Of a DNA stretch of 64,000 nt, positions 4,910 through 61,570 are shown piece by piece; the stretch's first letter is position 1; every line of letters starts with the position of its first letter. The notes beneath the pieces are model-generated. The model searched no databases. It had not been told where the DNA came from and saw nothing but the letters and a program-made list of their open reading frames with translations. The DNA is from Bacillota bacterium (GTDB lineage Bacteria > Bacillota > Clostridia > Oscillospirales > Acutalibacteraceae). The translations under genes and the position numbers were made by a program. The stretch is taken from contig JAETSA010000004.1 of NCBI GenBank assembly GCA_021769885.1, positions 62,001 through 126,000 on the forward strand. The letters run 5' to 3'.

Positions 4910-7900
4910 ATGGTTTACCGAATTTATGTGGAAAAGAAAAAGCAGTTTGCAGACGAAGCAAAATCTCTGCTTTCTGACATTCGTTCACTTTTGATGATTG
5001 ACAGCGTAACGGATTTGCGTTTGTTCAACCGCTATGATGTGGAAAATATTGACGAAGCACTGTTTAAGACCTGCGAAAAAACCGTGTTTTCCGAGCCGCA
5101 GCTCGACAACACCTATGCGCATCTGCCGCAGACGGACGCCGCTGTTTTTGCAACGGAATATCTGCCCGGTCAGTTTGACCAGCGTGCGGATTCCTGCGCA
5201 CAGTGCATTCAGTTTGTGTCCCGGGGCGACAAGCCCCTCGTGCGCACGGCAAAGGTCTATATGATTTTCGGCAAGGTATCGGACGCGGAGCTTCGCGCCA
5301 TCAAAAAATATGTTATCAACCCTGTGGAAAGCCGCGAGGCGTCCTTAGACCGCGTGGAAACGCTGAACATCCCCTACAATGTGCCGACAGAGGTGGAAAC
5401 CCTGACAGGCTTCACCGCACTTGATGACAAGGAATTGGCGGATTTCGTACAGAAATATGCGCTCGCGATGGACAATGCGGACATTAAATTCTGCCAGGAT
5501 TATTTCAAATCCGAGCACCGCGACCCGACCCTTACGGAAATCCGTATGATTGACACCTATTGGTCAGACCACTGCCGTCACACCACATTCTTGACGACGA
5601 TTGACGGCGCGGAGATTGACGACCCGTCCGTAAAAGCAGCATATGACCGTTATGTGGCAATCCGCAAAGAATTGGGACGTACCAAGCCGCAGAATCTGAT
5701 GGACTTAGCCACCATCGGTGCAAGATATTTGAAGCACACGGGTCAGCTCAAAAACTTAGACGAATCCGAAGAAATCAACGCCTGCACCGTGAAGGTCAAG
5801 GTAGATGTGGACGGTGAGGATGAAGACTGGCTGTTCCTGTTTAAAAACGAAACCCACAACCACCCGACCGAAATTGAACCGTTCGGCGGCGCGGCAACCT
5901 GCATCGGCGGTGCGATTCGTGACCCGCTTTCCGGGCGCGGCTATGTGTATCAGGCCATGCGCGTCACAGGCGCGGCGAATCCCTTAAAGCCTGTCAAGGA
6001 TACAATGACGGGCAAGCTCCCGCAGAGAAAGCTTGTCACCACTGCGGCGGCAGGCTACAGCTCCTACGGCAACCAAATCGGTCTTGCCACGGGGCAGGTC
6101 GATGAAATCTATCACGAGGGCTATGTGGCAAAGCGTTTGGAAATCGGCGCGGTTGTCGGTGCTGCTCCCGCGAAAAATGTTCGCCGCGAAGTCCCCGCCC
6201 CCGGCGATATTATCGTACTTTTGGGCGGCAGAACCGGTCGTGACGGCTGCGGCGGCGCAACAGGCTCTTCCAAATCACACAAGCTTTCCTCTCTCGAACA
6301 GTGCGGTGCGGAAGTCCAAAAGGGCAACGCGCCCGAAGAACGCAAGCTGCAAAGACTGTTCCGCAATCCCGAAGCGACAAAGCTAATCAAACGCTGCAAC
6401 GACTTCGGCGCAGGCGGCGTTTCGGTTGCTATAGGAGAACTCGCGGACGGTCTGCACATTGACTTAAATAAAGTTCCGAAAAAATATGAGGGTCTCGACG
6501 GCACAGAGCTTGCGATTTCCGAGTCCCAAGAGCGTATGGCAGTTGTGCTCGCGCCCGAGGATGTAGAAGCGTTCCGCGCGCTTGCATCGGAAGAAAATCT
6601 CGAATCCACCGTGGTAGCGGAGGTTGTTGCACAGCCGCGTTTGACCATGGAATGGAACGGCAAAAAGATTGTCGATATCTCCCGCGAGTTCTTGAACTCC
6701 AACGGTGCGGAAAAGCACACCCGTATTCAGGTGTCGGCGTTCCCGACCGTGGAAAAGACTGTGGCGGGCAAAACCAATGCGGAAAAATTCAAGGCTTTGG
6801 CGGACGACCTCAACATCTGCTCGAAGCGCGGTCTTTCCGAGCGTTTTGACTCTACCATCGGCGCGAACACCGTTCTGATGCCGTTCGGCGGCAAATATCA
6901 GCTTACGCCCGCGCAGGGTATGGCGGCCAAACTGCCCGTTCTGCACGGTGAAACCAAGACCTGCTCGGTGATGGCGTGGGGTTACAATCCGTTCATCACC
7001 GAAAAGAACCAATATCTCGGTGCGTATCTCGCAGTTGTGGAATCCGTTTCCAAGCTGATTGCCACAGGTGCGGATATAAACACCTGCTACCTTACATTCC
7101 AGGAATATTTTGAGCGTATGACAGAGGATGCTTCCCGCTGGGGCAAGCCTGCGGCGGCTCTTTTGGGTGCGCTGACCGCACAGCTCGAGCTAGGTCTTGC
7201 CTCTATCGGCGGCAAGGACTCTATGAGCGGTACGTTTGAGGATATTGACGTCCCGCCGACGCTCGTTTCTTTCGCAGTATCGGTCTGCAATTCCGACAAC
7301 GTAATTTCCCCCGAATTTAAATTACCCGGGTCTAAGGTCTATTACATCGAGCCGAAAAAGAACGCCGACGGCACATTCGACACCGAAAGTCTTTTGTCCG
7401 TTTACAAAACGGTATCGGATTTGATTGCACAGAAAAAGGTGCTTTCTGCATTTACCCCCACCTACGGCGGCATCGCGGAGGGCTTAATGAAATCCGCATT
7501 CGGCAATCACCTCGGCTTTAAGCTGGATAAGGCATTCGCGCAAGATAAGCTTTACAGCTACAATTACGGTGCATTTGTATTGGAAGCCGCTGAAGACCTC
7601 GACGGCTTGACCGTTTTGGGTGAGACCACCTACGATTACACCTTAAAAATCGGCATTGAGACCATTGATTTACAGGAAATCAGCGATATTTACGAAAATA
7701 AACTGGAATCTGTTTTCGCGTGCAACATCAAAACCGATTCCACACCTGTTGCGCCGCTGATTTACAAAGCGGAAAGCCGCGTAGCACCAAAAATCGGCAC
7801 AGCAAAGCCGAAGGTGCTCATTCCTGTATTCCCCGGCACGAACTGCGAATACGATACGATGCGTGCACTCGAGCGCGCGGGTGCAGAATCCAAGATTATG

Positions 7901-13986: not shown

Positions 13987-14345
13987 TGTCATTCTGAGCG
14001 AAGCGAAGAATCTCACACAACACAATGTAGATTTGATTTGTGCGCCACCGTTGGTTTTTTGTTGCGTTAAACCCGTGCTCGGGCGGGCACGGAAGGTCTC
14101 GCCTGCCGGCTCGGTCGGCGCTTCTGCATACTTCCGTATGCAGAGGTCTCCACCGGAGACCCGCGCCCCGCCCCTACGGTTGATGCATCACCGTTGGGTT
14201 TGTGCGAAATCGCAATTTGCTCGGGCGATTCGTGAATCGCCCCTACAAGATTGTTCGTGACCGTTAGTTTGGTGCGAAATACGACCGTGCTCGGGCGAGA
14301 CCTTCCGTGCACGCCCCTACGGGTTGTGCGTTGCCGTTAAGGCAT
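13987..14345. repeat. Palindromic repeat array (array 1)
   Basis: The 541-base gap between the PBP and acyltransferase genes. From left: CATTCTGAGCGAAGCGAAGAATCTC element (13990-14014); a filled composite at about 14086-14172, whose outer CGGGCGGG...CCGCCC arms enclose a GCCTGCCGGCTCGGTCGG module that itself holds TGCATACTTCCGTATGCA; a simple CGGGCGATTCGTGAATCGCC hairpin at 14222-14246; and a degenerate member at 14292-14322. Linkers contain GCATCACCGTTGGGTTTGTG. Spacing of the last two units is 70 bases. Nothing recognisable is seen in 13873-13986. Confidence 0.85.
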
Positions 14346-37152: not shown

Positions 37153-37372
37153 TAAAGGCGATTTGCCCCTACGATTTCGGCAGATTTTGCGGGCGATTCG
37201 TGAATCGCCCCTACGAATGTAGGGAACAACCTCTGTGTTGTTCCGTTGAGTTCGTGCGGATTTTTCTCTCCCTCCGTCACGCGCTTTGCGCTGTCCACCT
37301 CCCTCCGAAGACGGGAGGAAAACGGGCAGGCGCGCAATGTACGCCCCTACAGGTATGCGTACATACATCTGT
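37153..37372. repeat. Palindromic repeat array (array 2)
   Basis: Contains a degenerate AAGGCGATTTGCCCCTACG (37155-37172), a simple GCGGGCGATTCGTGAATCGC hairpin (37189-37215), GTAGGGAACAACC-TCTGTG-TTGTTCC (37218-37243), CTCCCTCCGTCACGCGCTTT...CTCCCTCC (37268-37318), and GGCGCGCAATGTACGCC (37330-37352). Confidence 0.85.
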
Positions 37373-37709: not shown

Positions 37710-37750
37710 GAAAATCACCCCATAACAGTGTATGAGGCGAAAAGAAAGAT

Positions 37751-38084
37751 GTGAGCAAACCTGTAAGCCGAGTTCTGTCATTGAAAGCAATTATCTATCT
37801 ACACACACCGTTGCCGATGTGTTGAAGCCATCCTTCGAAGTATCTGCCCAGCTGACAACTTCAGTCGATGTTGCATCGGGTAGGGTTTACTTGGCAATGC
37901 CGTTACCGACATCCCGGTGAGCTCTTACCTCGCCTTTCCACCCTTACCGCAAAATGCGGCGGTATCTCTCTATGCACTTTCCCGGAGGTCACCCTCGGCG
38001 GCCGTTAGCCGTTACCCTGCTGTATGATGCTCGGACTTTCCTCACGGCGGCTCGCGCCGCCCCGCAATTGCTCAGTCTGCTCAC
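37751..38084 (-). ncRNA. rnpB: RNase P RNA
   Basis: Catalytic RNA that trims tRNA 5' ends. On the minus strand it has the conserved blocks GAGGAAAGTCCGAGC near the 5' end, AAGGGTGGAAAGGCGAGGTA in the middle and ACAGAACTCGGCTTACA near the 3' end. The terminal helix P1 is formed by GTGAGCA (38078-38084) and TGCTCAC (37751-37757), which sets both ends. The length of ~334 bases is normal. The conserved CAGACTGAGCAATTGCGGGG after P1 fits the P2/P3 region. Confidence 0.97.
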
Positions 38085-39899: not shown

Positions 39900-40780
39900 G
39901 TGTAGGGAACAACCTCTGTGTTGTTCCGAAATTTTCATCGGTCTTCGGCGGGCACGCAATGCGCGCCCCTACGGGTTGCGGTTCACCGTTGGCTTGGTGT
40001 GAAACCCAACCTTGCTCGGGCGGGCACGGAGACCCGCCCCTACGGGGTGGTGCGTTGTTTTGCACGCCGTAGGGACATTTCTCGCCTGCCGGCTCGGTCG
40101 GTGCTTCTAAGCTTCGCTTAGAGGTCTCCACCGGAGACCCGCACCCCTCGCGGCTGTCCGCTTTTTTCTACAGCACAAGGTATAATAGATTCGAAAATCG
40201 TAGGGGACGCTGTTCTCGCCTGCCGGCTCGGTTGCGCTTCTAAGCCTCGCTTAGAGGTGTCCACTGGACACCCGCACCCTCAGCGTCCCGCGGGCGAACA
40301 CAGAACAGCGTAAATTCGATTCACGCGTAGGGACGGACGAAGATTTCCCTAGTAGGGAAAATGTCGCGAAGCGACAAAAGGGTAATGGCGTAGCCGTAAC
40401 CCGTCCGTCCGCGGGCGCGCAATGCGCGCCCCTACGGGGTTGTGGTTCTTAGATGGGTTTGTGCAAAAACAACTGTGCGCGGGCGGATGTGGGCATCCGC
40501 CCCTACGGAATCGTGCATCACCGTTTGGTTTGTTCTGATTTTTACACTTGCTCGGGCGATTCGTGAATCGCCCCTACGGGTTGTGCATCGCCGTTTGGTT
40601 TGTTCAGATTTTTTCCACTTACTCGGGCGATTCTTGAATCGCCCCTACACAGGTTTGTGCTTCACCGTTGGGTTGTGCAGATTTTTCTCTCCCTCCGGCA
40701 CGCACTTTGCGCGTGCCACCTCCCTCGTCAGAGGGAGGAATCCGGCGATTCGTTTTTACTCCCTACGGGATTGGCATCAC
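39900..40780. repeat. Large palindromic repeat array (array 3)
   Basis: About 0.9 kb without a gene. In order: GTAGGGAACAACC...TTGTTCC (39902-39928); GGGC-ACGCAATGCGC-GCCC (39949-39972); CGGGCGGGCACGGAGACCCG (40017-40044); a ~255-base composite (40049-40303); a filled element with GTAGGGACGGAC/GTCCGTCC arms (40327-40412); hairpins at 40411-40436 (CGCGCAATGCGCG), 40479-40508 (GGATGTGGGCATCC), 40553-40578 (GATTCGTGAATC) and 40624-40648 (GATTCTTGAATC); and a CTCCCTCCGGCACGCACTTT...GTGCCACCTCCCTC element (40688-40738). Units from 40479 on recur at 74 and 71 bases with linker CATCACCGTTTGGTTTGTTC. Confidence 0.9.
40049..40303. repeat. Composite repeat copy A (~255 bases)
   Basis: Nearly identical, with only scattered changes, to 50001-50255. 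It contains two GCCTGCCGGCTCGGT modules, each with a TAAGC...GCTTA hairpin and a GGTCTCCACCGGAGACC or GGTGTCCACTGGACACC palindrome, set inside GTAGGGACA...TGTCC and GTAGGGGACGCTG...CAGCGTCCC arms. Between them is ACAGCACAAGGTATAATAGA. Confidence 0.88.
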
Positions 40781-45282: not shown

Positions 45283-45780
45283 TAGGGCGGGGTGCGGGTC
45301 TCCAGCGGAGACCTCTGCATACGGAAGTATGCAGAAGCACCGACCGAGCCGGCAGGCGAGACCTTGCTCCCGCCGTGAACTCACATCAAATTTCGCGGGC
45401 GAACACAGTTCGCCCCTACGGGTGTAGGGAACGACCTCTGTGTCGTTCCATGGAATCTACACGAAGTACATTTGGGGTACGCGTAGTGGCGGGCTTCCAA
45501 GCCCGCGAAATCTATCCAATGCAAAGGGAATCATTCGTAGGGACAGCCCGGGCTCGCTGTCCGTTTCGGGCGAACACAGTTCGCCCCTACGGGATTACGC
45601 ATCACCGTTAGGCTTTTGCAAGCCGTAGGGACGGACGTCCCATCCGCGGGTCGCCGAGTCGTCGACCCCTACGGATGCGATTCGCCGTTTGGTTTGTGCA
45701 AAATCCAACCGTGATCGGGCGGGCGTGGAAACCCGCCCCTACAAGATTGTATATCACCATTCGGTTTGTGCAAAATCCGA
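45283..45780. repeat. Palindromic repeat array (array 4)
   Basis: Fills the 45270-45823 gap. Filled composite (45283-45368) in the opposite orientation to the 14086 copy, with the same TGCATACGGAAGTATGCA core; GCGGGCGAACACAGTTCGCC (45395-45420); GTAGGGAACGACC...GTCGTTCC (45423-45450); GTAGTGGCGGGCTTCCAAGC (45483-45507); GGGACAGCCCGGGCTCGCTG (45539-45562); CGGGCGAACACAGTTCGCCC (45567-45593); GGGTCGCCGAGTCGTCGACC (45648-45673); CGGGCGTGGAAACCCGCCCC (45716-45742). The last three recur at 80 and 69 bases. Confidence 0.88.
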
Positions 45781-46289: not shown

Positions 46290-46480
46290 TGGCAGTAGGG
46301 AACGACCTCTGTGTCGTTCCGTGAAATTTCATCGGATTTTGGCGGGCGAACGCAGTTCGCCCCTACGCGGTCTGCGCATCACCGTTAAGTTTTTGCAAAA
46401 ATCCAACCGTGTGCGGGCGATTCGTGAATCGCCCCTACAGAATTTGCGTATCACCGTTGGGTTTGTTCAAAATCCAAAAC
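46290..46480. repeat. Palindromic repeat array (array 5)
   Basis: GTAGGGAACGACC-TCTGTG-TCGTTCC (46294-46320), GCGGGCGAACGCAGTTCGCC (46342-46367), GCGGGCGATTCGTGAATCGC (46413-46438). The last two are 71 bases apart with linker GCATCACCGTTAAGTTTTTG; a second linker follows at 46450. Confidence 0.87.
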
Positions 46481-49914: not shown

Positions 49915-50300
49915 CTACGGATTGTAGGGAACGACCTTAAGTGTCGTTCCGTGAAACTTTATTTGTTTTTGCGGGCGATTCGTGAATCGCCCCTACGATT
50001 GGTGCGTTGTTTTAAACATACCGTAGGGACATTTCTCGCCTGCCGGCTCGGTTGCGCTTCTAAGCTTCGCTTAGAGGTCTCCACCGGAGACCCGCACCCC
50101 TCGCGGCTGTCCGTTTTTTCTACAGCACAAGGTATAATGGATTCGAAAATCGTAGGGGACGCTGTTCTCGCCTGCCGGCTCGGTTGCGCTTCTAAGCCTC
50201 GCTTAGAGGTGTCCACCGGACACCCGCACCCTCAGCGTCCCGCGGGCGAACACAGTTCGCCCCTACGGGGTTTGTGCACTGCCGTTGGGTTGTGCAAAAC
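49915..50300. repeat. Palindromic repeat array (array 6)
   Basis: GTAGGGAACGACC-TTAAG-TGTCGTTCC (49924-49950), GCGGGCGATTCGTGAATCGC (49971-49998), then the ~255-base composite copy B, ending in GCGGGCGAACACAGTTCGCC (50242-50269) and the linker TGCACTGCCGTTGGGTTGTG. Confidence 0.88.
50001..50255. repeat. Composite repeat copy B (~255 bases)
   Basis: Near-identical to copy A at 40049-40303, 10 kb away, including the GGTATAATGGATTCGAAAATC middle part. Differences such as GGTGTCCACCGGACACC (B) versus GGTGTCCACTGGACACC (A) fall mainly in loops. Confidence 0.88.
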
Positions 50301-60167: not shown

Positions 60168-60420
60168 GTAGGGGCGAACTGTGTGTCAAGAGTATGATAG
60201 TATACTGCGTTCGCCCGCGAGTCGCTGCATTTCATCAGACCTTCACGGGTGCGCAATGCACGCCCCTACAGGGTTGTGATTTACCGCTACGTTTGTGCAA
60301 AATTCAACCGTGCTCGGGCTACGCGCAATCGCCCCTACGGATTGTGCATCATCGTTTGATTGTACAGGTTTGCGGGCGGATGAAGGCATCCGCCCCTACG
60401 AAAGTCCCGTGAGCAAGGTA
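60168..60420. repeat. Palindromic repeat array (array 8)
   Basis: The first member is interrupted: GTAGGGGCGAACTGTGT, then ~25 AT-rich bases (about 60184-60207), then GTTCGCCCGC (60209-60219). Others: GGGTGCGCAATGCACGCCCC (60246-60270), CGGGCTACGCGCAATCGCCC (60314-60339), GCGGGCGGATGAAGGCATCC (60373-60400). Spacing is 68 and 59 bases; linker TGTGCATCATCGTTTGATTG. Confidence 0.83.
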
Positions 60421-61384: not shown

Positions 61385-61570
61385 AAAGTAGGGGCAAACT
61401 GTCAGCCTCCCTTGTCAAAGGGAGGGGAATCGCGTTAGCAGTGGAGGGATTCATCGCCCGTTGAAGCCTGATAGGATTTTGGCGGAACGACACAGAGGTC
61501 GTTCCCCTACACCCGTAGGGGCGATTCACGAATCGCCCGCGGACGGACAAGGATGTCCGTCCCTACGCGT
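61385..61570. repeat. Palindromic repeat array (array 9)
   Basis: CCTCCCTTGTCAAAGGGAGG (61406-61425); GGAACGACACAGAGGTCGTTCC (61482-61503; inverted form of the GTAGGGAACGACC element); GTAGGGGCGATTCACGAATC...GCCC (61516-61540); GGACGGACAAGGATGTCCGTCC (61543-61564) with CTACGCG. This last one is the empty form of the filled element at 40327-40412. Confidence 0.85.

Follow-up and report, generated by a model that had tools for sequence, protein, structure and literature searches.

GTAG-tagged REP hairpins with varied tips in a clostridial genome, most likely copied by RAYT transposases whose genes bear such hairpins

The IS200/IS605 insertion sequences encode single-strand HuH-Tyr transposases (named after a histidine-hydrophobic-histidine motif and a tyrosine) that are related to the REP-associated tyrosine transposases (RAYTs), where REP stands for repetitive extragenic palindrome. 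Strand-biased insertion of IS200/IS605 elements is described in passages of PMC6006769, which also report in-frame REPs within RAYT genes of subclass 2.4, describe the region between the HuH motif and the tyrosine as the general site of in-gene REPs, and name Clostridia for subclass 1.1 only. In the parts covered of PMC3733652, 24 families of GTAG-type REPs are distinguished, with stem subfamilies that show complementary changes and with REPs within genes; a word search of this paper found neither 'clostridi' nor 'firmicutes'. Passages of PMC2817692 report that inverted REP pairs flank RAYTs, that hybrid clusters occur, that complementarity is preserved and that RAYT and REP trees agree; compensatory changes in REPINs (REP doublets forming hairpins) are reported in passages of PMC3116915. 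The E. coli enzyme requires the GTAG, the bulge and lower-stem contacts and tolerates a complemented loop or upper stem; removal of upper stem and loop abolishes its binding, and mismatches harm the two group 3 enzymes (passages of PMC8266576). Here we analyse the palindromes in a stretch of 64,000 nucleotides of a Bacillota genome (GCA_021769885.1, contig JAETSA010000004.1, positions 62,001 to 126,000; hereafter the window, in whose coordinates sequence positions are given), which is part of a 97.6% complete genome of 2.32 Mb in 38 contigs.

We found that the intergenic palindromes of this genome are GTAG-tagged REP elements, and it is highly probable that they are copied by RAYTs. RAYT genes bearing such hairpins can be identified here and are the candidate copying system as judged from sequence; most of those covered have a hairpin of this kind in their coding sequence, often twice and opposite-facing, which would account for the many tips as well as for the matching arms. 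Much of this picture is already published: REPs themselves, the pairwise change of their stems, their coevolution with RAYTs, hybrid clusters and the in-frame location of REPs in RAYT genes. Possibly new are a fixed inverted pair within the gene, a polarity along the replicon and cloverleaf tips: no report of a fixed inverted in-gene pair flanking the HuH motif, of REP replicon polarity or of cloverleaf tips was found in the search results and paper passages covered, a weak negative. A search for RAYT repeats of gut clostridia returned nothing, and one combining cloverleaf and REP returned nothing relevant as judged by titles and abstract openings. Like the GTAG REPs described in passages of PMC3733652, the present elements have an unpaired GTAG end, a stem of 6-13 bp, a short loop and complementary stem changes within families, and they occur as several types per genome in tandem and inverted groups; they differ in that their stems may enclose folded modules of about 60-75 bases and in that their orientation follows the replicon.

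On the tag strand each element reads GTAG, stem, loop and second arm, with the 5' GTAG unpaired and the stem beginning behind it. In a sample of 411,100 bases (411 kb: the window and 20 further stretches; a stem is a score of at least 7) a stem directly follows GTAG at 211 of 1452 sites, compared with 0.45-1.01% for eight control tetranucleotides; TAGG reaches 16%, which reflects the same hairpins shifted by one base. A GGGCG base shared by the palindromes had been proposed from the sequence alone; this is true for many copies, but GGAAC, GGACGG, GGACAG and GGCGGG stems bear the same tag, and GGGN stems form a further family besides the GGGCG frame. The genome holds 529 exact copies of CGTAGGGGCG (5 for the reversed control), and the commonest tip is GATTC (118 exact copies). 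Among 24 congeners the number of CGTAGGGGCG copies is 0-35 per genome, some being at the level of the reversed control and the top genome, G019, not exceeding its own control (32); relative to them the present genome is the extreme case. In the window, GTAGGGGC occurs 26 times, compared with about 0.9 expected under a first-order Markov model (30 simulations). As a separate observation, GACGA stems retain an unpaired A.G position (loci L004 and L053 and intergenic copies), which recalls the mismatch required in E. coli REPs.

All ten motifs listed in the sequence-only reading are present in the window, 4-15 bases downstream of where it had placed them: GATTCGTGAATC at 14227, 37195, 40558, 46419 and 49977, with its reverse complement at 61523; GATTCTTGAATC at 40629; GAACACAGTTC at 45401, 45572 and 50248; GAACGCAGTTC at 46348; CGCAATGCG at 39955 and 40418; GGATGTGGGCATCC at 40485; GGATGAAGGCATCC at 60378; GTGGAAACCC at 45725; GGAACAACC at 37223 and 39906; and GGAACGACC at 45428, 46299 and 49928, inverted at 61497. 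Two short motifs have further copies in the window, away from the listed GTAGGG sites: CGCAATGCG has five, on either strand, and GTGGAAACCC has one, at 5393. That reading overlooked the large folded modules (about 60-75 bases) in some loops and did not recognise the REP/RAYT system. The elements of the window are as follows:

14223..14246, minus strand: REP with GATTC tip
37191..37214, minus strand: REP with GATTC tip
37219..37244, plus strand: REP with GGAACAAC stem
39902..39927, plus strand: REP with GGAACAAC stem, GTAG plus 8 bp and a 6-nt loop, of the family of palindromes at the L002 RAYT
39950..39972, minus strand: REP with GGGCG frame and GCGC tip, one arm base altered
40018..40043, minus strand: REP with GGGCGGG stem and tctccgtg loop
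40069..40159, plus strand: GTAGGGACA frame with folded module Y in the loop and right arm GGCTGTCC (loop placement by eye; the script puts the module outside the loop, the left arm being degraded)
40200..40289, plus strand: REP with GGGACGCTG frame, its tip being module Y
40327..40410, plus strand: REP with GGACGGACG frame, its tip being module X, with a four-arm cloverleaf fold
40413..40435, minus strand: REP with GGGCG frame and GCGC tip, 2 nt from the X element, tags outward
40481..40506, minus strand: REP with GGGCGGATG stem and ccca loop
40554..40577, minus strand: REP with GGGCG frame and GATTC tip
40625..40648, minus strand: REP with GGGCG frame, GATTC tip and AA loop
45397..45419, minus strand: REP with GAAC tip
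45424..45449, plus strand: REP with GGAACGAC stem, 4 nt from the GAAC REP, tags inward
45568..45590, minus strand: REP with GAAC tip
45717..45742, minus strand: REP with GGGCGGG stem and tttccacg loop
46295..46366: composite of a GGAACGAC REP (plus strand, 46295-46320), a 23-nt spacer and a GAAC-tip REP (minus strand, 46344-46366), tags outward
46415..46438, minus strand: REP with GATTC tip
49924..49996: composite of a GGAACGAC REP (plus strand, 49924-49950), a 22-nt spacer and a GATTC-tip REP (minus strand, 49973-49996), tags outward
50152..50266: GGGACGCTG frame with module Y (plus strand, 50152-50241), a 2-nt gap and a GAAC-tip REP (minus strand, 50244-50266)
60168..60216, plus strand: REP with GAAC tip split by module W
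60374..60399, minus strand: REP with GGGCGGATG stem and cctt loop
61484..61566: cluster of a GGAACGAC REP (minus strand, GTAG at 61510), a GATTC REP (plus strand, 61515-61538), 2 nt and a GGACGGACA REP (minus strand, 61541-61566)

The REPs at 37.2-37.4 kb lie about 400 bases from the gene for RNase P class A RNA (37748-38083, minus strand, Rfam E 1.9e-81).

Searching the genome with PF01797 (Y1 transposase) gave four matches, which are four of its seven RAYT loci; the seven are found with a profile (A1) built from nine such proteins of this genome and its relatives, two of them being split across frames. Matches to A1 are present in 23 of the 39 genomes of the genus, the present one included, and at least 416 relatives were found in named genomes (the best 80 were kept), the top named match among the matches listed coming from an uncultured Clostridiales bacterium (RUG149). 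All six proteins tested match the NCBIfam model REP_Tyr_transpos (NF047646), with L057 alone (81.3) passing its 80-bit cut-off. Among solved structures the best match is 4er8, TnpA-REP in complex with a REP hairpin (sequence E 3.3e-10; fold E 2e-7 and template modelling score 0.64, searched with a model of predicted local distance difference test score 85). The next-best folds are the IS608 and ISDra2 proteins, a likeness to IS200/IS605; from those elements the present system differs in that, among the genes with listed hairpins, these lie mostly inside the gene. Across 28 of 28 aligned proteins (A2), H82 and H84 of the HuH motif and Y155 with N159, four residues on, are invariant. Y155 is probably the catalytic tyrosine, to judge by such enzymes in general and by its spacing to N159; for the E. 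coli enzyme, N119 is named in passages of PMC6006769. On contig C26 of the same genome (119-124 kb; L057, L058) three RAYT genes of differing hairpin type stand within 5 kb, one of them in two frames.

From 144 matched open frames, 122 cores were long enough and distinct; removal of four partial views of the same genes left 118, a few of which are IS200-like rather than RAYT (e.g. L025, L034, L035, L050). A GTAG hairpin lies within the core in 83 of the 118, and this in-frame trait is that of subclass 2.4, the comparison being made by trait and not by the published subclass tree. In these cores a stem directly follows GTAG at 140 of 356 sites, compared with 0.6-2.7% for 11 other tags. An inverted pair, a sense copy followed by an antisense copy, was found within the core in 52 of the 118 genes; counted by copy order, sense..antisense occurs 53 times, antisense..sense never and sense..sense twice. 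The median positions of the two copies in the core are residues 40 and 96, and their tags point outward around the HuH motif. The present genes resemble the subclass 2.4 RAYTs and TnpA-REP in passages of PMC6006769 in their HuH-Tyr transposase, in-frame in-gene REPs and long canonical REPs with three G-C pairs at the base of the stem, and they differ in having a second copy before the HuH motif and in that opposite-facing copies always turn their tags outward (53 to 0). In L113 the hairpins encode residues 40-47 and 96-104, which in the structural model fall into a turn between strands 37-40 and 48-51 and into region 91-110, which follows the HuH strand and is predicted weakly.

The stems of the two copies are identical in 33 of the 52 pairs (shuffled partners: mean 2.1, maximum 7). 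Identical stems code for different peptides, as in L043 (VGAIHESP and RAIRESPLR), so protein constraint alone is not the cause of the identity, which suggests copying or selection at the level of DNA. In four genes (L062, L129, L115, L161) the two in-gene hairpins are unlike, each being internally paired, and L062 and L129 hold the same two GACGA variants in swapped order; L115 (GATTC/GCTTC) and the L062/L129 genes may have been caught in the middle of a switch. A layout near the flanking inverted REPs in passages of PMC2817692 is seen at L002, with one REP copy upstream of the start codon and another overlapping the 3' end of the frame. A single in-gene hairpin with GTAG at both ends occurs in the RAYTs L137, L157, L166 and L167 (Microcystis, Marinimicrobia, Melioribacter, Brocadia) and may be compared with published double-foot REPs.

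Within this one gene group there are more than a dozen hairpin types, each inside transposase genes, and 11 of 12 REP classes match a hairpin inside or beside a RAYT gene, in the present genome or elsewhere. The genome's own RAYT hairpins are GAAC (L059), GCGC (L056, one arm of the second copy altered), GGACGG (L057), GACGA (L053), GGGACGATG (L058), GGCGGGGGC (L054) and GGAAC (L055, with a copy ahead of the start codon, another that overlaps the 3' end and a weaker one inside); relatives and named genomes add GATTC (L043, L081, L113, L114), GCTTC (L111, L112), GGGCGGG with an 8-nt loop (L087) and GGACAGC (L041). On a quick tree with the hairpin-coded residues masked, in which 52 of 115 inner branches are open, REP type follows the RAYT lineage: the 16 types that occur two or more times (54 rows) require 25 changes, where shuffling gave no fewer than 34 and 15 would be possible. 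For the present genome and its relatives (29 rows, 18 types) the 17 changes are the minimum possible, the lowest of 200 shuffles being 19.

The arms of the hairpins belong together. A stem is present at 115 of the 480 distinct GTAGG sites of the 411-kb sample; when the left 9 nt were kept and the remainder was exchanged among these sites, a mean of 5 stems was left (maximum 8, 20 trials). Covariation was examined in a 660-kb sample, in which rows were picked by the left arm GGGNNNNTG only and the right arm was read at a fixed offset. Of the 40 distinct rows obtained, 16 form 8-9 of 9 pairs. The other 24 form at most 5 and were excluded, since they have different loop lengths, contain modules or are no REP. 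Among the 16 rows with a hairpin, 142 of 144 cells are paired, whereas 500 shuffles of the right arms gave 116 on average and never more than 132; pair 4 occurs as C-G, A-T, T-A and G-C, pair 5 as C-G and G-C, and pair 7 as A-T and C-G. When only the outer frame is held constant, 41 of the 52 tips that leave three pairs free are paired throughout; when TTC-GAA is held constant too, the single free pair matches in 58 of 61 copies, and the other 3 copies are one-sided variants of the main two tips. The proposal that each tip keeps its own pairing thus describes most copies and fails for a minority, free variation of one arm being confined to 3 of 61 and 11 of 52 copies. Selection for a folded structure, or copying that preserves it, had also been suggested; right halves are indeed not interchangeable between sites, and paired changes exceed those of shuffled arms. 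The clear covariation signal comes from the class that holds several stems. Within single classes it is weak: 90 of 99 cells for NTTC (shuffled mean 87, maximum 92), 126 of 144 for the 3-nt-loop class (115, 125), 90 of 104 for GGAAC (86, 90) and 51 of 54 for GGACGGAC (49, 51).

Matching arms could also arise by quasipalindrome correction, that is, by template switching between the arms at replication, with no transposase selecting paired copies. Single-arm intermediates between the main NTTC tips are rare, as such a process would have it (40 ATTC/GAAT, 16 CTTC/GAAG, 3 mixed), and in-gene copies usually share their stem despite different peptides. However, correction leaves the tag, the match between tips and RAYT lineages and the spread to hundreds of places unexplained, and it should remove the unpaired A.G of the GACGA stems, which is kept in RAYT genes and intergenic copies alike. 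We therefore regard it as unlikely as the main cause, though arm correction may contribute alongside copying by RAYTs.

A further trace comes from the orientation of the REPs along the replicon, counted on pieces of at least 9 kb with an absolute skew above 0.01 (eight shorter pieces and the near-zero L024 were excluded). The tag strand of GGGC copies lies on the G-rich strand, presumably the leading strand, in 193 of 222 copies (59 of 70 clusters, p 4e-9). GGAAC and GGAC copies have the opposite polarity, with 12 of 60 copies (7 of 43 clusters, p 9e-6) and 3 of 35 copies (3 of 25 clusters, p 2e-4) on the G-rich strand, respectively. For GGAAC the correlation of orientation with skew is not significant (Spearman -0.34, p 0.22), though the cluster counts are, and convergent copies of this family show no orientation bias (3 of 7). 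By gene context in crude calls, GGGC copies are on the G-rich strand in 11 of 11 cases between other-strand genes, in 51 of 61 between G-rich-strand genes, in 29 of 33 between convergent and in 16 of 19 between divergent genes; their orientation tracks GC skew, not transcription. The polarity fits single-strand transposition, of which it would be an independent genomic trace, and the opposite polarity of the families would fit two families serving as ends of one composite.

The same counts bear on the reading that the hairpins are kept chiefly as RNA structures, such as 3' ends, terminators or stabilisers of mRNA, with pairing selected in the RNA. Published REPs are mainly found downstream of coding regions and are plausibly transcribed (passages of PMC3733652), and here most GGGC copies lie outside crude open reading frame (ORF) calls (156 of 237; GGAAC 42 of 66, GGAC 30 of 53; the caller admits spurious ORFs). 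An RNA role is nevertheless very improbable as the main explanation: GGGC orientation goes by GC skew and not by flanking genes (11/11, 29/33 and 16/19 in the contexts above), RNA hairpins have no need of a GTAG tag, no T-run directly follows the stems in the window listing, and an Rfam search of the window (four matches at E up to 1, of which the RNase P RNA alone exceeds its gathering score) placed no family at the listed hairpins.

Copying by RAYTs, which we prefer, would proceed as follows, to judge by published biochemical work on the E. coli enzyme and other REP transposases. The RAYT would bind GTAG and the folded single strand, cut beside the hairpin and paste it elsewhere, probably where replication bares one strand. 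As recognition would need paired arms, surviving tips would be internally complementary; the requirements and tolerances of the E. coli enzyme predict a conserved base with freer yet paired tips, as found. The many tips would be the cognate hairpins of different RAYT lineages, and many RAYT genes keep their hairpin as an inverted pair in the coding sequence, in two loops flanking the HuH motif. At stake are how REPs gain new stems and yet stay palindromic, how a RAYT stays matched to its REP, and where very common repeats come from; the putative mid-switch genes make a change of specificity testable with matched sets of protein and hairpin.

Several observations weigh against this account. For the present group, every step from recognition to pasting is one that we infer. 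By the test used, 35 of the 118 genes have no hairpin, and 19 of the 52 in-gene pairs differ between copies. In 13 of these 19 the stem has changed by paired substitutions only (e.g. L115, GATTC vs GCTTC), as read by eye and with a bias towards paired changes, since detection itself demands a stem; the others comprise changes in one arm (L056, L117, L186), one outer pair (L059), a mixed case (L160) and a pair that includes a chance hairpin (L157), likewise by eye. When rows are selected by the frame only (36 distinct rows), the per-pair excess over shuffling is modest, with 0.61 vs 0.42 for pair 6, 0.78 vs 0.52 for pair 7, 0.69 vs 0.61 for pair 8 and 0.74 vs 0.62 for pair 9, and pair 5 shows none (0.78 vs 0.80). 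The GGATG class has no matching RAYT hairpin among the 118 genes, and GATTC, GCTTC, 8-nt-loop GGGCGGG, GGACAGC and GGATG have no matching RAYT in the genome's own assembly; of 287 classified copies in the 660-kb sample at most 169 belong to classes with an own-genome RAYT and 118 do not, the classes being broader than exact stems. The tie between lineage and tip is not strict, as RAYT clades far apart can share a type (25 changes where 15 would be possible, on a rough tree), which suggests that tips are sometimes acquired anew. Finally, several congeners have REPs and no RAYT match, e.g. G041 with 24 GGCGGGGGC copies.

In G041 and G053 (97-98% complete) the 24 and 7 GGCGGGGGC REPs are exact copies, and the RAYT profile has no match in either genome, so that either the REPs have outlived their transposase or the assemblies have a gap.

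The exchange of tips, which the sequence-only reading had singled out, is borne out by different tips in shared flanks and by composites with fixed gaps. Around GGGC copies the flanks are about equally alike for pairs with different tips and pairs with the same tip. Own flanks for each tip type are therefore rejected for the GGGCG frame. The flanks of GGAAC or GGAC copies resemble those of GGGC (GGGCG) copies at or near background only. Types with a GTAG-GGGCG base would insert at the same frame or recombine through it, which is how tips may be swapped within shared flanks. Of the 56 GGAAC REPs, 33 have no inverted GGGC-class partner with outward tags; the other 23 do, the partners being of seven tip classes, and in 18 of these pairs the gap is 22-24 nt. 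Of the GGACGGAC REPs, 10 of 18 have such a partner, with five tips and always at a gap of 2 nt, and 8 have none. GGACAGC REPs have an inverted partner in 5 of 19 cases, at varied gaps. Counted over all A-G pairs, 43 are outward, with peaks at 2 and 22-24 nt, and 31 have tags inward; head-to-tail G-G pairs number 46, at least 36 of them with gaps of 38-48 nt. These composites resemble the REPINs and BIMEs (bacterial interspersed mosaic elements) in passages of PMC2817692 and PMC3116915 in that two REPs are inverted and putatively act as one unit, in their compensatory changes and preserved complementarity, in hybrid clusters that combine REPs from two RAYTs, and in RAYT-REP coevolution. They differ in that the ends belong to different families at fixed gaps of 22-24 or 2 nt, that one end takes several tips, and that the two end families have opposite polarity along the replicon.

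The loops of several frames contain a long module, X (about 60 nt), Y (about 72 nt, in either orientation), W or Z. A script assigned 20 of 21 X copies to a REP loop, and likewise 31 of 39 Y, 3 of 3 W and 3 of 8 Z copies; of places drawn at random, 97 of 3000 passed this test, and of those drawn near a GTAGGG, 331 of 1500. The loop preference of X and Y is clear, that of W rests on three copies, and for Z (3/8 against the 331/1500 near GTAGGG) it is not supported; by eye, several of the eight Y misses also lie between degraded arms. In 15 chosen X elements the interior is nearly constant and the enclosing stem has the GGGCGGATG, GGGTCGGCG, GGACGGACG or GGCGGGG form. Folded as single-stranded DNA, four X elements form the REP stem together with three hairpins, at z values between -5.2 and -8.1; the z value of one Y element is -5.9. 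Matches to X, many of them partial, are present in 20 of the 39 genomes of the genus, the present one included; in 12 loci inspected by eye, a GTAG frame encloses X in 9, L199 is unclear, and L198 and L201 lie outside a frame.

These modules are what would be expected if small mobile elements entered REP loops and the short tips were their footprints. The loop counts of X, Y and W favour such insertion, as does the presence of X in several frames and in the GTAG frames of congeners. As an account of the short tips, however, it is improbable: they already equal hairpins of RAYT genes, which makes footprints superfluous. The reading may be right for the long modules only. IS110-type transposases are known as visitors of REPs, and a transposase of this type was considered as mover of modules X and Y; PF02371 (IS110-type transposase) has no match in the present genome, which speaks against this candidate and the insertion reading with it.

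With copying by RAYTs as the preferred explanation of the short tips, we offer a more speculative extension, which we consider doubtful. The in-gene inverted pair may act as an address plate that stores the target code twice, in tolerant loops flanking the HuH motif, with both copies renewed together. A lineage would then retarget by swapping a paired tip while keeping the base frame, the interchangeable codes would be read on one strand of the replication fork, and the X cloverleaf-like modules would be long codes or riders.

In the congeneric loci L195, L196 and L199 the third hairpin of module X is replaced by another and the first two are kept, as judged by eye, a second level of modularity.

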